Source: Candidatus Peribacteria bacterium
GTDB lineage: Bacteria; Patescibacteriota; Gracilibacteria; Peribacterales; Peribacteraceae
Assembly (NCBI GenBank): GCA_943350395.1
Contig: CALRAD010000010.1
Coordinates: forward strand, 1 to 34,870
Direction of reading: 5' to 3'
DNA length: 34,870 bases
The notes below the pieces were generated by a model. The model saw only the letters and a list, made by a program, of their open reading frames with translations. It had not been told where the DNA came from and searched no databases. Both the position numbers and the translations under genes were made by a program. Below, piece by piece: positions 9,320-34,870 of this stretch. Position 1 is the first letter of the stretch, and each line of letters begins with the position of its first letter.

Positions 9320-9428
9320 CATGGTTCGAGACGCACTCGTAAAAACTCGTGCTCCTCACCATGACACTCGTTGCTTTGAATTGTCATGCTGAGGAGCGTG
9401 AGCATCAGCGAATGCGTCTCGAAGCATG
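9320..9428. repeat. 47-bp imperfect inverted repeat (large hairpin)
   Basis: The left arm 9320-9366 and right arm 9382-9428 match as inverted copies at about 37 of 47 positions with no gaps, separated by a 15-nt loop. The arms include TTCGAGACGCA and GCTCCTCA/CATGACA blocks. It lies between the converging ends of rpsE and the ACT-domain gene, so it may work as a bidirectional terminator. Its length and imperfect symmetry also fit a dispersed MITE-like repeat. Confidence 0.8.
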
Positions 9429-9430
9429 CC

Positions 9431-9841
9431 CTACTTTAGGGCTTTCTTCGCCTTCTCCAAATCATCGACATCGACATAACACATCGCCTCTTTGCCGAGT
9501 GACGTCGCATAGATATGTTTGATATTGATGCCGGCACCTGCGCATTTGCGTGCGAGATCGGCAATCGCACCGGGCTTGTTATGGACTTTGTAGGCAATGA
9601 TCTCCGTTTCGACAACCTCGCTCATCGGTCGTAGGACGATCTTTGCCGTCTCCGGATCATCGAGGACGAGGTGAACAAGGGTTTTTGTCGGACCTTCGGT
9701 GCACGACAGCGCTTCGATGTTCACGTCTGCGGCCCGAAGCATGTCAGATGTCCTCGCGAGTGCTCCCGGGTTATTCGGCAGCGTGATGGTGAGTTCGATG
9801 GCGGTAAGCACGTTGTTGTAGGGGAAAAGTTTGAGAGGCAT
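9431..9841 (-). CDS. Tandem ACT-domain protein
   Basis: ACT domains bind amino acids and regulate enzymes or transcription. The 136-residue product from ATG 9841 (MPLKLFPYNNVLTAIELTIT) consists of two ACT-like units: residues about 14-70 (PNNPGALARTSDMLRAADVN, then IEALSCTEG) and about 75-136 (VHNKPGAIADLARKCAGAGI, then NIKHIYATS). Each has the 'PG.L....L..AG.NI' pattern. There is no attached enzyme, so this is a stand-alone amino-acid sensor of unknown partner. A TTG at 9868 would add nine residues but is less likely. It lies on the strand opposite to the ribosomal genes, in the place of L30. Confidence 0.8.
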   Translation of the reverse strand: MPLKLFPYNNVLTAIELTITLPNNPGALARTSDMLRAADVNIEALSCTEGPTKTLVHLVLDDPETAKIVLRPMSEVVETEIIAYKVHNKPGAIADLARKCAGAGINIKHIYATSLGKEAMCYVDVDDLEKAKKALK

Positions 9842-9884: not shown

Positions 9885-10124
9885 TTACAGCAACCGATAA
9901 TCGGCCATCATCGCCTTGGTTCTGGCGACTTGTTGGCAGTCGCGTTTTCCGCAGACTTCGGACATGACATTGTCGACTCTGCGTCCGCATTCACGACACA
10001 AATTTTCGACGAAAAAAGCAGCATTTTGACTTTCGGGAATCGTTTGCAGTAAGCATGCATCATTATGCGCAACGAACGCATCGATGACATGCGAATGCGG
10101 CGGTGTAAAGTTGGGGGTATTCAT
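9885..10124 (-). CDS. Small cysteine-containing protein, unknown
   Basis: From ATG 10124 the frame encodes 79 residues (MNTPNFTPPHSHVIDAFVAH...). The middle holds CRECGRRVDNVMSEVCGKRD followed by C, that is CxxC and CxxxxC pairs that could bind one zinc. There is no signal peptide or membrane segment. I do not recognise the family. Upstream sits a ~107-nt folded leader that is nearly identical to the one before the next minus-strand gene, so the two may be co-regulated. Confidence 0.55.
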   Translation of the reverse strand: MNTPNFTPPHSHVIDAFVAHNDACLLQTIPESQNAAFFVENLCRECGRRVDNVMSEVCGKRDCQQVARTKAMMADYRLL

Positions 10125-10156
10125 GGGAGAATTGGGGAATGAAAAATTAAAAATAA

Positions 10157-10263
10157 GCCTCGCTTGGGAAGGAGGCTCTGCGAGGGAATTCTTTGGTTCC
10201 TTTACGCAGCCAGCCGCCTTCCCGCTGTAAGCAGGAGGTTGAGACTGAGCGTAAGGGACAGGG
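10157..10263 (-). promoter_or_regulatory. Structured leader element, copy 1
   Basis: Read on the minus strand, this 107-nt element ends 32 nt before the start codon of the 79-residue protein gene. An 11-of-12-bp stem joins GGGAAGGCGGCT (plus 10212-10223) to AGCCTCCTTCCC (plus 10166-10177) and encloses CTGCG/CGCAG and a GGAA/TTCC hairpin. The 5' segment CCTTACGC can alternatively pair with GCGTAAAGG inside the stem. AAGC-GAG-GCTT followed by ATTTTT comes just before the coding region. It is about 90% identical to 10571-10676. Confidence 0.6.
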
Positions 10264-10321
10264 AATACTTCACAGTAGATTGAAAGAAGAAAATCAGGAG
10301 TGGAAATCAACCGTTACTCTC

Positions 10322-10531
10322 TTAAATTGGATTTATTCGTTCTCTTTGCCCCAATCCATTTTCTTTCCAAGTAGCGTCGATCTTTCTGAATTGAGTCAGT
10401 AATACTCGGTACGTATCGAAATCAATCGGATTACCATCTCTATCAACATACTCTTGAGGTGCCTCTGCGGAAGCTATTGGTCGCGTCGTAACGATGTCGT
10501 GCGATGGGGTTGCATCTGGGTTCGTAGTCAT
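10322..10531 (-). CDS. Small hypothetical protein
   Basis: ATG 10531 opens a 69-residue frame (MTTNPDATPSHDIVTTRPIA...) with a Thr/Pro-rich disordered-looking start and a later helical part (DFDTYRVLLTQFRKIDATWK). No cysteines, membrane segment or known motif is seen. Support comes from its position behind a second copy of the structured leader and from the pyrimidine-rich start context CCAATCCTTCCC-ATG, like its neighbours. Family and function are unknown. Confidence 0.5.
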   Translation of the reverse strand: MTTNPDATPSHDIVTTRPIASAEAPQEYVDRDGNPIDFDTYRVLLTQFRKIDATWKENGLGQRERINPI

Positions 10532-10570
10532 GGGAAGGATTGGAAGTAGGAAATGATACAGGAAAAACGC

Positions 10571-10676
10571 GCCTCTCGTGGGAAGGAGGCTCTGCTAGGG
10601 AATTCTCGATTCCTTTACGCAGCCAGCCGCCTTCCCGCAGTAAGCAGGAGGGAGAGACTGAGCGTAAGGGACAGGG
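10571..10676 (-). promoter_or_regulatory. Structured leader element, copy 2
   Basis: This 106-nt element ends 39 nt before the start of the 69-residue protein gene on the minus strand. The stem is formed by GGGAAGGCGGCT (plus 10625-10636) with AGCCTCCTTCCC (plus 10580-10591). The inner GGAAT...ATTCC hairpin and the alternative partner CCTTACGC are kept, and a GCGCGTTTTT run follows. Compared with copy 1 the differences are concentrated in loops and flanks. Confidence 0.6.
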
Positions 10677-10918
10677 ACTGAATCACGGGCGAAGATTAGA
10701 GCAGGGGTTGGGGGAGTGTCAAGAAAATGAAAACGTAGTGGAAGATCCACATCTTCCGCGGTTGTCGTATTTTTCCGTATGCGTGTCCGCGGAGGTAACG
10801 AACCTCCGCTACGATCTTCTTTTTCCCTTTACCTCTCTCTCTTTTCTCTCTAACATTCACGCCCGCAGAGGTCTAAAAAGACTCCTCCTGCGTTTTGATC
10901 CCTCTGCACCGTTTTCTT
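10677..10918. other. Intergenic region before rplO with two hairpins
   Basis: The 387-nt space between the 69-residue gene and rplO contains leader copy 2 and then this stretch. It has a hairpin GGAAGAT-CCAC-ATCTTCC (10740-10757) and a 7-bp hairpin GCGGAGG-TAACGAA-CCTCCGC (10789-10809), the second looking like a dispersed repeat. The last ~100 nt before rplO are strongly pyrimidine-rich. The promoter of the rplO-secY genes must lie here, but I see no convincing -35/-10 pair. Confidence 0.5.
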
Positions 10919-30988: not shown

Positions 30989-31097
30989 GATACACATATG
31001 ACCATTCCAAAAACCGCAGCAATATGCTAAAATAACAAGATTTTCACGGGCACATACACAGATAGAAGTATGCGCACGCGAGAACAGAAACACACAC

Positions 31098-34000
31098 ATG
31101 CACAAAATCCGTCGACCGCTGGCCTCGATCGTTCTTGCAATCATGATCTTGTCGATCGTCGTGTCCGATGCTCATCTCGTGCCTGCCGCAAGTCCCGCTT
31201 CCGTTCCGGTCGTGGCACGAGAGCCATACGGTCCTTTCGCTGTTGCCTTCACCGGCGCGAGCACAATATTCAATTCGCAGAAGACCGAGACCGGTTCACT
31301 CGACCAGAATCCCGGAGCGTCGATTCTGGAAAGGGCAAATGCAAGACGCCTCCAGAGAAGTTTGTACATTCAAGAACTTACGATTGCCCCTGCAGCGCCT
31401 GCTTTGTTTTCGAGCAGCGTGAGTGTATCTCGTTATGCATTCGGTCCTGCCAAAAACAATCAGGTGCTCACATTTATCGATGGCAGGATGGTGTGGCGTG
31501 ACCCCACCTACGCTCCTGCGGGAGCTTCGGGGGGCAAGCCCGTTGATTTTATCCGCGAGCCCGGTTCTGGGAGGAAGCCTGCAGATCTGTTTCATTCGGC
31601 TGCGATCGACAGAAATCTCGGAAGTGCGACACCTCCAAGACATTATGGCAGTGGGGGCGGAGGTTCTTCTGTAGCGACGACAACGACAGTGTCTGGACTC
31701 TCCGAATCCGATGCAAACGGCAATTATGTGAATGTCTCCGGGGACACGATGGCAGGCGCACTCGTGATTTCTTACAACGGTCTCGGGCTTTCGATTGCTG
31801 GAACGGCATCGGGTGATGTGATCCATGCGACACGACTGCTCACCGTCACCGGATCTGCGATCTTCGACGGCAACGCTCGCTTCAATTCGACGGTCACATT
31901 GAACTCCGTCACCTACACGTTTCCGTCTTCCGATGGAACTTCCTCAGGCAAAGTCCTGAAAACCAATGCAGCAGGGCAACTCAGCTGGTCTACCGATTTG
32001 AATACGGGCTCCTCAAGCAACTGGTCAAACACCGGCTCTCTCCAGACTGCTTTCGATGCTCGTTACGTGAACACGGCAGGCGACACCATGACCGGAGCTC
32101 TCCTCGTCAAAGCCAACCTCTCCGGTTCTCGACTGATTATCTCCGGAAACGCAGCAGTTTCGGGAGCGCTTGTCGTTGTGAGTAACGGCACAATTCGTGG
32201 AACACTTTCCGGAAATATTCTCCATGCGGAGAAAGATCTTACGTCTTCAGGAACCCTCACGGTTGTTGGAGCTGCGAGACTCAAATCCAATCTCAATGTC
32301 GTCGGCACCATTTCCGGAGCCGCTCTCCAAATCATGGCAGGCAGTACCAATTACATCCAAGGCACTCTCGGCATCGGCACCACTGCTCCCAAAGCAAAAC
32401 TCGATGTCACCGGAACGATCTCAGGAAACACTCTCGTCATCAGCAAGAATGGTTCTTTCTCGGGAGCGCTGACAGTCGTCGGAAACTCCACCGTCAGAGG
32501 TACCTTCTCTGGAACTACGATCAATGCAAACTCCCTCCTCACAGGATCCACGATTCAGGGCTTCGGTCTCTACGGTTGCCAAGGCACAGCAAACAAGATC
32601 ACCTACAACGCCTCGACCAAGAAATTCCTTTGTGAGGCGGATCAAGCGGTGGGATCTGGTCTTGATCAAAACGCGGGTGACGCTCGCTACGTCAATCAAT
32701 CCGGCGACACGATGACCGGCGCTCTCTCCGTCCGTGCCACTCTCTCCGGTTCCCGCCTCGTGATCTCGGGTAATGCAGCCGTCTCGGGAGCCCTGATCGT
32801 CGTCGGAAACGGCACCTTCCGCGGAACCTTATCTGGCACCACGATCAACGCCAACTCTCTCCTCACAGGAGCCACCATCCAAGGTTTCGGTCTCTACGGT
32901 TGCCAAGGAACGAGTAACAAGATCACCTACAACCAAACCACCAAGAAATTCCTCTGCGAAGCAGATCAGACAGGGGGAGCCTCCAGCAACTGGAGCAATA
33001 CCGGATCCCTTCAGACCAGTTTCGACCTCCGCTACGTCAATCAATCCGGAGACACGATGACCGGAGCACTCCTTGTCAAAGCCAACCTCTCCGGTTCTCG
33101 ACTGATCATCTCCGGAAACGCAGCAGTCTCCGGTGCACTCGTTGTTGTGGGCAACGGCATCATCAGAGGCACGCTCTCTGGAAACATTCTCCATGCCGAA
33201 AAGACACTGACATCCTCCGGCACCCTCACCTTCGAAGGAGCAGCCTCCGGATCCACTCTCTACGTTGCAACCTCTATTAGCGGTGCAGGACTCACAGATT
33301 GTGATGTCGCAACGCAAACCCTGAATTGGGACAGCAGCACCGGACGATTCTCCTGTGGCACCGACAGCGACACCACCTACACGGCAGGCCAGGGTCTTTC
33401 CCTTAACGGCACAACCTTCTCTCTCGCTTCCGCTTTCTCCGGAACTTCTCTCAAGATCTACGGAACACTCTCTGGAAACATTCTTCACGCCGAAAAAACT
33501 CTCACCTCATCTGGAACCCTTACCATTCTCGGCACCACTACCCTCCGAGGCACTACCTCCGGAAACATCCTTCACGCGGAGAAGACTCTCACATCCTCAG
33601 GCTCTCTCACCTTCGAAGGCGCTGCCTCCGGTTCCACTCTCTACGTCGCCACTTCCATCAACGGTGCAGGGCTTGCAGACTGTGACATCGCAGGCACCAG
33701 CAAACTTCTCTGGGACAGTGCAACAGGCAGATTCTCCTGCGGCACTGACCAGAACAGCGGATCAGGAGCCCCTGAAGTCGGCACCACCTCCTTCACCGGA
33801 GCAGTCCTCAGGCTCGGCGATGCTCGTTACGTCAACACCAGTGGCGACACCATGACAGGTGCTCTCCTCGTCAAAGCCAACCTCTCTGGCTCCAGACTGA
33901 TCATCTCCGGAAACGCCGCAGTCTCGGGTGCTCTCATAGTTGTCTCTGACACCACCATCAGAGGGACACTCTCTGGAAACATCCTCCACGCAGAGAAAAC

Positions 34001-34870
34001 TCTCACATCTTCAGGCTCTCTCACCTTCGAAGGAGCAGCTTCCGGATCTACTCTCTACGTTGCCACTTCTATTAGCGGAGCAGGACTCACAGATTGTGAT
34101 GTCGCAACGCAAACTCTTAACTGGGACAGCTCCACCGGACGATTCTCCTGTGGCACCGACAGCGACACCACCTACACGGCAGGCCAGGGTCTTTCCCTTA
34201 ACGGCACAACCTTCTCCCTTGCCTCAGCCTTCTCCGGCACCTCTCTCAAAATCTACGGAACACTCTCTGGAAACATTCTCCACGCCGAAAAAACTCTCAC
34301 CTCATCTGGAACCCTCACCATTCTCGGCACCACTACCCTCCGAGGCACCACCTCCGGAAACATCCTCCACGCAGAAAAGACACTGACATCCTCCGGAACA
34401 CTGGTTGTTATTGGTAATTCCAAATTCCGTGCCACGCTTTCCGGAAACATTCTCCATGCTGAGAAAGATCTCACGTCTTCAGGAACCCTCACGGTTGTTG
34501 GAGCTGCGAGACTCAAATCCAATCTCAATGTCGTTGGAACAATCTCAGGCGCTGCTCTCCAGATCATGGCAGGCAGTACCAATTACATTCAGGGCACTCT
34601 CGGCATCGGCACGACTTCACCCAAAGCAAAACTCGATGTCACCGGAACGATTTCCGGAAACACTCTTGTCATCAGCAAGAACGGTTCCTTCTCGGGAACC
34701 CTCATGGTTGTCGGAAATTCCACCGTCAGAGGCACACTCTCCGGAACTACCATCAACGCAAACTCCCTCCTCACAGGATCTACGATTCAGGGCTTCGGTC
34801 TCTATGGTTGCCAAGGAACAGCGAACAAGATCACCTACAACGCCTCTACTAAGAAATTCCTCTGCGAAGC
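31098..34870 (+). CDS. Giant secreted modular repeat protein (5' part, open to window end)
   Basis: From ATG 31098 the frame stays open for 1257 codons to the window edge. Residues 1-35 are a signal peptide (MHKIRRPLASIVLAIMILSI, cleavage likely after VPAA). A unique N-terminal region (to about 200) holds a dispersed-repeat insertion (TYAPAGASGGKP). The rest repeats several modules: NTAGDTMTGALLVKANLSGS, like phage tail-fibre 'GDTMTG.L' repeats; LIISGNAAVSGALVVV; LSGNILHAEKTLTSSGTL; and FGLYGCQG...KKFLCEAD or TGRFSCGTDSDTTYTAGQGL, with paired Cys. It is rich in Ser, Thr, Gly and Leu. A beta-solenoid adhesin on the cell surface is likely; the partner is unknown. Overlapping frames on both strands are shadows. 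Confidence 0.9.
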   Translation, partial: MHKIRRPLASIVLAIMILSIVVSDAHLVPAASPASVPVVAREPYGPFAVAFTGASTIFNSQKTETGSLDQNPGASILERANARRLQRSLYIQELTIAPAAPALFSSSVSVSRYAFGPAKNNQVLTFIDGRMVWRDPTYAPAGASGGKPVDFIREPGSGRKPADLFHSAAIDRNLGSATPPRHYGSGGGGSSVATTTTVSGLSESDANGNYVNVSGDTMAGALVISYNGLGLSIAGTASGDVIHATRLLTVTGSAIFDGNARFNSTVTLNSVTYTFPSSDGTSSGKVLKTNAAGQLSWSTDLNTGSSSNWSNTGSLQTAFDARYVNTAGDTMTGALLVKANLSGSRLIISGNAAVSGALVVVSNGTIRGTLSGNILHAEKDLTSSGTLTVVGAARLKSNLNVVGTISGAALQIMAGSTNYIQGTLGIGTTAPKAKLDVTGTISGNTLVISKNGSFSGALTVVGNSTVRGTFSGTTINANSLLTGSTIQGFGLYGCQGTANKITYNASTKKFLCEADQAVGSGLDQNAGDARYVNQSGDTMTGALSVRATLSGSRLVISGNAAVSGALIVVGNGTFRGTLSGTTINANSLLTGATIQGFGLYGCQGTSNKITYNQTTKKFLCEADQTGGASSNWSNTGSLQTSFDLRYVNQSGDTMTGALLVKANLSGSRLIISGNAAVSGALVVVGNGIIRGTLSGNILHAEKTLTSSGTLTFEGAASGSTLYVATSISGAGLTDCDVATQTLNWDSSTGRFSCGTDSDTTYTAGQGLSLNGTTFSLASAFSGTSLKIYGTLSGNILHAEKTLTSSGTLTILGTTTLRGTTSGNILHAEKTLTSSGSLTFEGAASGSTLYVATSINGAGLADCDIAGTSKLLWDSATGRFSCGTDQNSGSGAPEVGTTSFTGAVLRLGDARYVNTSGDTMTGALLVKANLSGSRLIISGNAAVSGALIVVSDTTIRGTLSGNILHAEKTLTSSGSLTFEGAASGSTLYVATSISGAGLTDCDVATQTLNWDSSTGRFSCGTDSDTTYTAGQGLSLNGTTFSLASAFSGTSLKIYGTLSGNILHAEKTLTSSGTLTILGTTTLRGTTSGNILHAEKTLTSSGTLVVIGNSKFRATLSGNILHAEKDLTSSGTLTVVGAARLKSNLNVVGTISGAALQIMAGSTNYIQGTLGIGTTSPKAKLDVTGTISGNTLVISKNGSFSGTLMVVGNSTVRGTLSGTTINANSLLTGSTIQGFGLYGCQGTANKITYNASTKKFLCE
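31503..31542 (+). repeat. Dispersed palindromic element, copy B (inside surface protein gene)
   Basis: It runs CCCACCTACGCTCCTGCGGG, AGCTTCGGGGGGCAAGCCCG. It is the longest copy: its left half matches copy C and its right half matches copy A (30 of 32 from 31511). It is translated as PTYAPAGASGGKP, in the same reading frame as the L3 tail. Confidence 0.85.
32208..32638 (+). repeat. Long direct repeat, first copy (2232-bp offset)
   Basis: This 431-bp segment recurs at 34440-34870 with no insertions or deletions (offset 2232 bp = 744 codons). Identity is high, including synonymous positions. The second copy is cut by the window end. Confidence 0.85.
33162..33599 (+). repeat. Long direct repeat, first copy (795-bp offset)
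   Basis: This segment recurs at 33957-34394 (offset 795 bp = 265 codons). Stretches such as 33301-33420 and 34096-34215 are almost identical at the DNA level, pointing to recent duplication or gene conversion. Confidence 0.85.
33957..34394 (+). repeat. Long direct repeat, second copy (795-bp offset)
   Basis: Second copy of 33162-33599. It encodes the LSGNILHAEKTLTSSG, CDVATQTLNWDSSTGRFSCG and TYTAGQGLSLNGTTFSL modules. Similarity fades near 34390. Confidence 0.85.
34440..34870 (+). repeat. Long direct repeat, second copy (2232-bp offset)
   Basis: Second copy of 32208-32638, encoding the NILHAEKDLTSSGTLTVVGA through FGLYGCQGTANKITYNASTK segment. It runs to the edge, so the repeat may be longer. 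Confidence 0.85.

Follow-up and report, generated by a model that had tools for sequence, protein, structure and literature searches.

Tandem leader elements with a predicted leucine attenuation mechanism in a Candidatus Peribacteria genome

The paired elements and their surroundings

The window, by which we mean the whole 34,870-nucleotide stretch of contig CALRAD010000010.1 (GCA_943350395.1) that was analysed, belongs to a Peribacteraceae genome and carries two similar minus-strand elements of about 107 nt, inside a cluster of ribosomal-protein genes. Element A occupies positions 10264-10157 and element B positions 10677-10571. A preliminary description had reported two such elements, about 90% identical and standing 32 and 39 nt before two small genes, and this arrangement was found to be real. 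A BLAST search within the genome showed that A and B were 92% identical across 108 nt (E=5.7e-38) and that they were the only copies it detected. The distance to the next ATG was 32 nt for A (ATG at 10124) and 39 nt for B (ATG at 10531), and the two small ORFs that start there are unrelated to each other. Further covariance-model matches in this genome were weak (E>0.001), the two best of them had no convincing leader upon inspection, and these matches look like chance. As B was 99% identical to the element of the sister genome G001 and A only about 91%, A looks like the diverged duplicate of the pair on sequence grounds.

The minus-strand order was found to be B, a 69-aa ORF (10322..10531), A, a 79-aa ORF (9885..10124) and a gene for a protein with a pair of ACT domains (9431..9841), which is the conserved gene of the operon. 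Searches of Pfam and NCBIfam revealed no family for either small ORF; matches to herpesvirus and insulin-like Pfam families were weak, fell far below the cut-off and were rejected. The 69-aa ORF had no homologue in the loci fetched, and the 79-aa ORF, which contains a CxxC...CxxxxC motif, showed a weak match (E=0.004) to the ORF following the homologous leader of locus L027. No clear homologue of either orphan was found, the sister genomes G001 and G002 included; each of these two genomes has one element with other small ORFs after it. The ACT-domain gene was 84% identical in G001, and about ten other loci had a homologue of it downstream of a leader of the leucine type or a related type, immediately after the leader in L085 and L138. 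Judged from these sequences, the ACT-domain gene is the strongest candidate for what is regulated here, and we infer that the operon extends to it.

Two other features of the window were observed. A long imperfect inverted repeat with 47-nt arms (79% complementary) lies at 9320-9428, between the convergent rpsE and ACT-domain genes, and is probably a bidirectional terminator or a repeat. Additionally, both strands of positions 31000-34870 contain a long run of reading frames with internal similarity, for example EDVRVFSAWRMFPESVP; TRF reported no tandem array there, and the region resembles a segment of a large repetitive protein.

Leader reading frames and alternative stems

Each element contains a leader ORF, which the preliminary description had overlooked. 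The ORF of B (10615..10686, minus strand) encodes MIQSLSLTLSLSLLLTAGRRLAA and that of A (10202..10273, minus strand) encodes MKYSLSLTLSLNLLLTAGRRLAA; both start with GTG, end with TAA and comprise 23 codons for a leucine-rich peptide. A short ORF spanned the 5' half of nearly every complete, well-scoring element found, and the homologues kept the same frame with the stop at the same place, as in the leaders MHQRNLLLGLALLLLTAEGRLRA, MTTQIFSFGFSFFPFSAGKKPMRLK, MFLQATLPVPFTPPRAGRCLAA and MNSAYVLSCSPVSSCCSLAGGTCA. In the leader region 5' of the stem, 38 changes fell at third codon positions versus 18 and 21 at the other two, and the single changes were synonymous in 17 cases and nonsynonymous in 8. 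The conserved frame, the codon-position bias and the leucine enrichment of the predicted translation thus point to a short ORF rich in the regulated residue. The putative leucine control codons, CTC CTG CTT, are codons 13-15 in B (10642..10650, minus strand), just 5' of the antiterminator, and were assigned to 10229..10237 (minus strand) in A from codon placement and masked folding. The control codons stand 8-14 nt and more 5' of the antiterminator arm, and the stop codon comes just after the arm.

The conserved alternative pairing joins GGGAAGG.GGCU..CUGC with GCAG.AGCC.CCUUCCC. In B, the 5' arm of this antiterminator (10619..10636) lies within the last codons of the leader ORF and the 3' arm, GCAGAGCC.CCUUCCC, lies at 10580..10595; in A, the arms lie at 10206..10223 and 10166..10181, and all four minus-strand assignments come from covariation. 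The scan of homologues for terminators located an intrinsic terminator on the minus strand of each element: GCCUC...GAGGC with a U-tract in B (10563..10590), whose 5' arm overlaps the antiterminator 3' arm, and GAGCCUC...GAGGCUU with a U-rich tract in A (10142..10178). The U-rich run previously noted before the start codon does exist, and we read it anew as the U-tract of this terminator. Of 79 copies put through a simple scan, 66 had a terminator hairpin with a U-tract, with the same overlap between its 5' arm and the antiterminator 3' arm. The first simple promoter and terminator scan detected neither the terminator of A nor that of B, because of a 10-nt loop and a U-tract starting 1-3 nt past the stem.

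Covariation in related genomes, which the preliminary description had proposed to examine with a covariance model, was strong in the antiterminator stem. Two-sided changes occurred in 17 of its 18 pairs among 75 aligned copies (217 cells versus 69 when shuffled, sd 12, and at most 52 in slid controls) and in all 18 among 103 copies (324 cells versus 110 when shuffled), both alignments being fitted to the structure and hence biased towards it. Five antiterminator pairs with double changes were already present when ten copies were aligned with MAFFT without fitting to the structure.

The two exclusive folds that had been suggested do exist. Both elements folded more stably than dinucleotide shuffles (z about -2.5); the predicted minimum fold of A consists of a long 5' hairpin and the terminator, and that of B is the antiterminator. 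The complementarity between CCTTACGC and GCGTAAAGG, to which the switch had been ascribed, occurs in A, B and their nearest relatives. It is lost in the distant copies L005, L009 and L010, and on this sequence comparison we treat it as a lineage-specific detail; UUACGC/GCGUAA was dropped as an essential switch, since distant copies do without it.

The ribosome was modelled as masked bases in the folding of 95 leaders. With the ribosome at the control codon just 5' of the arm, the median probability was 0.97 for the antiterminator and 0.00 for the terminator; with the ribosome at the stop codon, it was 0.99 for the terminator, the antiterminator being zero there by construction of the mask. The terminator was more probable with the ribosome at the stop than with the ribosome stalled in 93 of 94 leaders. 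Without a ribosome, B was predicted to favour the antiterminator, contrary to A. Covariation, the terminator scan and masked folding thus all indicated an antiterminator that excludes an intrinsic terminator.

A promoter resembling TTGACA-N16-TAxxxT was found 5' of 70% of the 95 homologous leaders versus 4% of shuffles, and the distance from the -10 box to the leader start codon was mostly 8-10 nt. In B, the sequence and the promoter scan of homologous leaders placed the -35 box TTGACA at 10717..10722 and the -10 box TCTAAT at 10695..10700 (minus strand; alternatively TAATCT at 10698-10693), with the GTG about 8 nt later. Because the start codon follows the -10 box so closely, the leader ORF is predicted to be leaderless or nearly so. 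The promoter match of A was weak, and A may therefore be transcribed mainly via read-through from B.

Distribution of the leaders and the genes that follow them

A first covariance model, built on ten copies, matched 58 of 74 family genomes (E<=0.01), and the refined model matched 60 of the 74 Candidatus Peribacteraceae genomes, none of which had more than five copies; at the class level, 83 of 353 genomes had matches. Scores were lower outside the family, where convincing leaders occurred in L118, L119, L181 and L183. In L122, which belongs to the set scored outside the family, the putative element precedes a leuA. Weak matches outside the class included clear false positives. The matches in L179 and L180 were plain inverted repeats, those in L097, L098, L099, L103 and L104 had no convincing leader, and all of these were treated as false positives. 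In another class of the phylum, L178 (2501-2631) and L182 (2501-2637) showed a Leu-rich leader, MKRNTSRILAVTLLLLERGKVGIC, with a strong terminator; a gene for tRNA-Val follows directly in L178, and a sequence resembling a tRNA does so in L182. This arrangement may be an attenuator before tRNA genes, or chance.

Comparison with Rfam gave no match for the window at the gathering score, and region 10050-10800 gave only chance matches to eukaryotic RNAs at E up to 10. Leu_leader and similar leader families matched neither the window nor 20 homologous loci, and no T-box (RF00230) was found in the window or in the 74 Peribacteraceae genomes.

The genes after other copies, which the preliminary description had suggested examining, included genes for amino-acid enzymes cognate to the leader residues. 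Leu-rich leaders preceded 2-isopropylmalate synthase (leuA); Phe/Tyr-rich leaders preceded prephenate dehydratase (pheA), DAHP synthase or a prephenate-dehydrogenase-like protein (tyrA); Pro-rich leaders preceded glutamate 5-kinase (proB); Ser/Cys-rich leaders preceded phosphoglycerate dehydrogenase (serA); and Ile/Val-rich leaders preceded a class IV aminotransferase and, outside the family, a PALP enzyme with a LeuA regulatory domain. Across 28 loci and six enzyme classes, cognate residues made up a mean fraction of 0.39 of the leader versus 0.16 when labels were permuted, and none of 100,000 permutations was as high; the peptide chosen automatically for L056 was read in the wrong frame, so that the test errs on the conservative side. 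In all 13 best-scoring leuA-type loci of the family, a Leu leader stood upstream, either adjacent to the gene or separated from it by one small ORF; the leader of G050 among them was short and weakly scoring. In most loci, 15-60 nt separated the leader from the start codon, and the first ORF after the leader was often an orphan. Downstream genes that make or handle the same amino acid were thus found family-wide, and the genes following the window's own elements are only the ACT-domain gene and the orphans. A leuA-type (PF00682) match was absent from the window's genome, and this species apparently lacks leuA. Leucine sensing in it therefore probably serves something other than leucine synthesis, and its leucine attenuators probably control the ACT-domain gene and the two orphans.

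Several other observations were made in the homologous loci. A VIT-family (iron/manganese transporter-like) gene recurred after leucine-type attenuators, at L058 (3480-4247) and as eight clustered proteins elsewhere, and a protein of about 105 aa whose family was not recognised often lay just 5' of it. Small proteins with a GRYGPDERxxMRxxGI-like motif or an RVxxxVDxPV-like end followed Leu leaders in L038, L039, L044, L049, L066, L032, L048, L053 and others, and apparently form a lineage-specific family under leucine control. In L119 (1177-2898), a PALP-domain PLP-dependent enzyme fused to a LeuA regulatory domain follows the Ile/Val-rich leader MQRVIVIGLIIIPLNQER; this enzyme may be a threonine deaminase that is controlled by isoleucine and has borrowed its regulatory domain. 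Attenuators also stood in tandem, within about 1 kb of each other, in L060, L069, L071, L087, L077, L094 and L133, and their specificities were either the same (Phe then Phe) or different (Phe then Pro). The amino-acid types may share ancestry or may have converged; the tandem Phe and Pro leaders of L060, L069, L071 and L094 suggest duplication.

Proposed mechanism, alternatives and known systems

These sequences and folding models make it very probable, in our judgement, that A and B are both transcription attenuators of the ribosome-mediated kind and that they sense charged leucyl-tRNA. The ORF, the covarying alternative stems, the terminators and the family-wide match between residues and enzymes support this directly, and we infer ribosome stalling, with leucine as the signal, for this species. 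RNA polymerase would start at the GTG or slightly ahead of it, and a ribosome would begin the 23-residue leucine-rich peptide. With ample leucine, the ribosome would reach the UAA and cover the antiterminator 5' arm (the last seven or so codons), so that the terminator hairpin and U-tract would form and transcription would stop. With scarce leucine, it would stall at CTC-CTG-CTT just 5' of the arm; GGGAAGG.GGCU..CUGC/GCAG.AGCC.CCUUCCC would then form and sequester the terminator 5' arm, allowing read-through into the downstream genes. If no ribosome were present, the leader hairpin of A, an anti-antiterminator that includes the CCTTACGC pairing, would favour termination. The window would hold two such attenuators one after the other, in the order B, orphan, A, orphan and ACT-domain gene. 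Counting against leucine attenuation, the small downstream ORFs of the window are not recognisable leucine enzymes, the genome gave no PF00682 match, the promoter match of A is weak, and B is predicted to favour the antiterminator when no ribosome is present.

The preliminary description had read the elements as a riboswitch-like RNA of a class that could not be named. Its core, a cis-regulatory RNA with exclusive folds, was retained; the conserved ORF, the terminator and the residue/enzyme match identify a leader-peptide attenuator instead. A metabolite-binding riboswitch, in which the leader binds a small molecule and toggles the two folds, would agree with these folds and with the long, highly conserved stem of the closest copies. 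Across the family, however, variation in the apical part is free, and an unpaired, aptamer-like core that stays invariant was not found; conservation tracks the ORF, which explains the conserved sequence, and the stems. As the downstream gene also follows the amino acids of the leader and no Rfam riboswitch matched, we consider a riboswitch extremely improbable. The short, hydrophobic leader peptides have a common motif at the C-terminus, (T)AEGRLRA or AGRRLAA, as might a nascent-peptide arrest leader of the ErmC/MifM type, in which a Leu/Phe-rich peptide stalls the ribosome and senses an antibiotic or secretion stress. This motif is accounted for by the antiterminator that it encodes, the residue identity shifts with the downstream enzyme, and no resistance or secretion gene recurred among the genes characterised, which leaves peptide arrest very unlikely. 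Finally, the elements have their own promoter and terminator and are often followed by an orphan, as would befit a dispersed repeat or a stand-alone small RNA unrelated to the downstream genes. We assign this explanation a nearly negligible probability: the genome has two strong copies only, biosynthetic genes match the leader residues, and the copies, far from the random scatter of a plain repeat, sit at a fixed place upstream of genes.

The mechanism of the attenuator proposed here is itself textbook ribosome-mediated attenuation, for which a general theory (PMC1183508), actinobacterial cases (PMC1262725) and proline-codon attenuators in Salmonella (PMC3641672) have been described. The Peribacteria genome paper reports that genes for amino-acid biosynthesis are few, without any mention of attenuators (PMC4736985), and a literature search that was thin on subscription journals yielded no account of attenuation in candidate-phyla bacteria. 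New in the present case are the lineage, the re-coding of a single scaffold and the probable control of orphan genes in a species that is apparently auxotrophic for leucine. On an evenly balanced judgement, Peribacteria, candidate-phyla bacteria with reduced genomes and no detectable T-boxes, may use one modular scaffold with Leu, Phe/Tyr, Pro, Ser/Cys and Ile/Val codon swaps as a main sensor of amino-acid starvation, and likely leucine auxotrophs, among them the window's species with no leuA-type match, may have kept it to control an ACT-domain protein and lineage-specific small proteins by external leucine. Gene regulation in candidate-phyla bacteria is little known. An attenuator reveals the amino acid that is monitored, and the leader set of each genome is therefore a testable map of the residues that these uncultured, mostly dependent cells make or have to take up. 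Flagging small unannotated proteins as amino-acid regulated gives a first clue to their function, and the covariance model could become a new RNA family.

One close parallel is leuL-leuABCD of gammaproteobacteria, which comprises a leader peptide, an anti-antiterminator, an antiterminator and a terminator; the leuA attenuator of Shewanella follows the same three-stem logic (PMC2659441). Similarly, Peribacteraceae relatives have a Leu-rich leader before 2-isopropylmalate synthase, three alternative stems, an anti-antiterminator formed from the leader-coding sequence and predicted read-through upon leucine shortage. In contrast, the Peribacteria leaders have no Rfam match, a predicted leaderless or nearly leaderless ORF and an antiterminator 5' arm within the last leader codons, and control in the window's species probably falls on the orphans and the ACT-domain gene. 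Actinobacterial attenuators and the LEU element (PMC1262725) also regulate genes for leucine and other amino acids at the RNA level in a group other than proteobacteria; the LEU element is described as a conserved pseudoknot upstream of leuA, whereas the Peribacteria elements consist of a leader ORF and a terminator. T-box riboswitches likewise sense tRNA charging for several amino acids, but they bind uncharged tRNA directly without a leader ORF. As in the pheA, ilv, his and trp attenuators, the control codons match the operon product (Phe/Tyr; Ile/Val); unlike in those systems, one scaffold has been re-coded for at least five amino-acid groups, all found by one covariance model.
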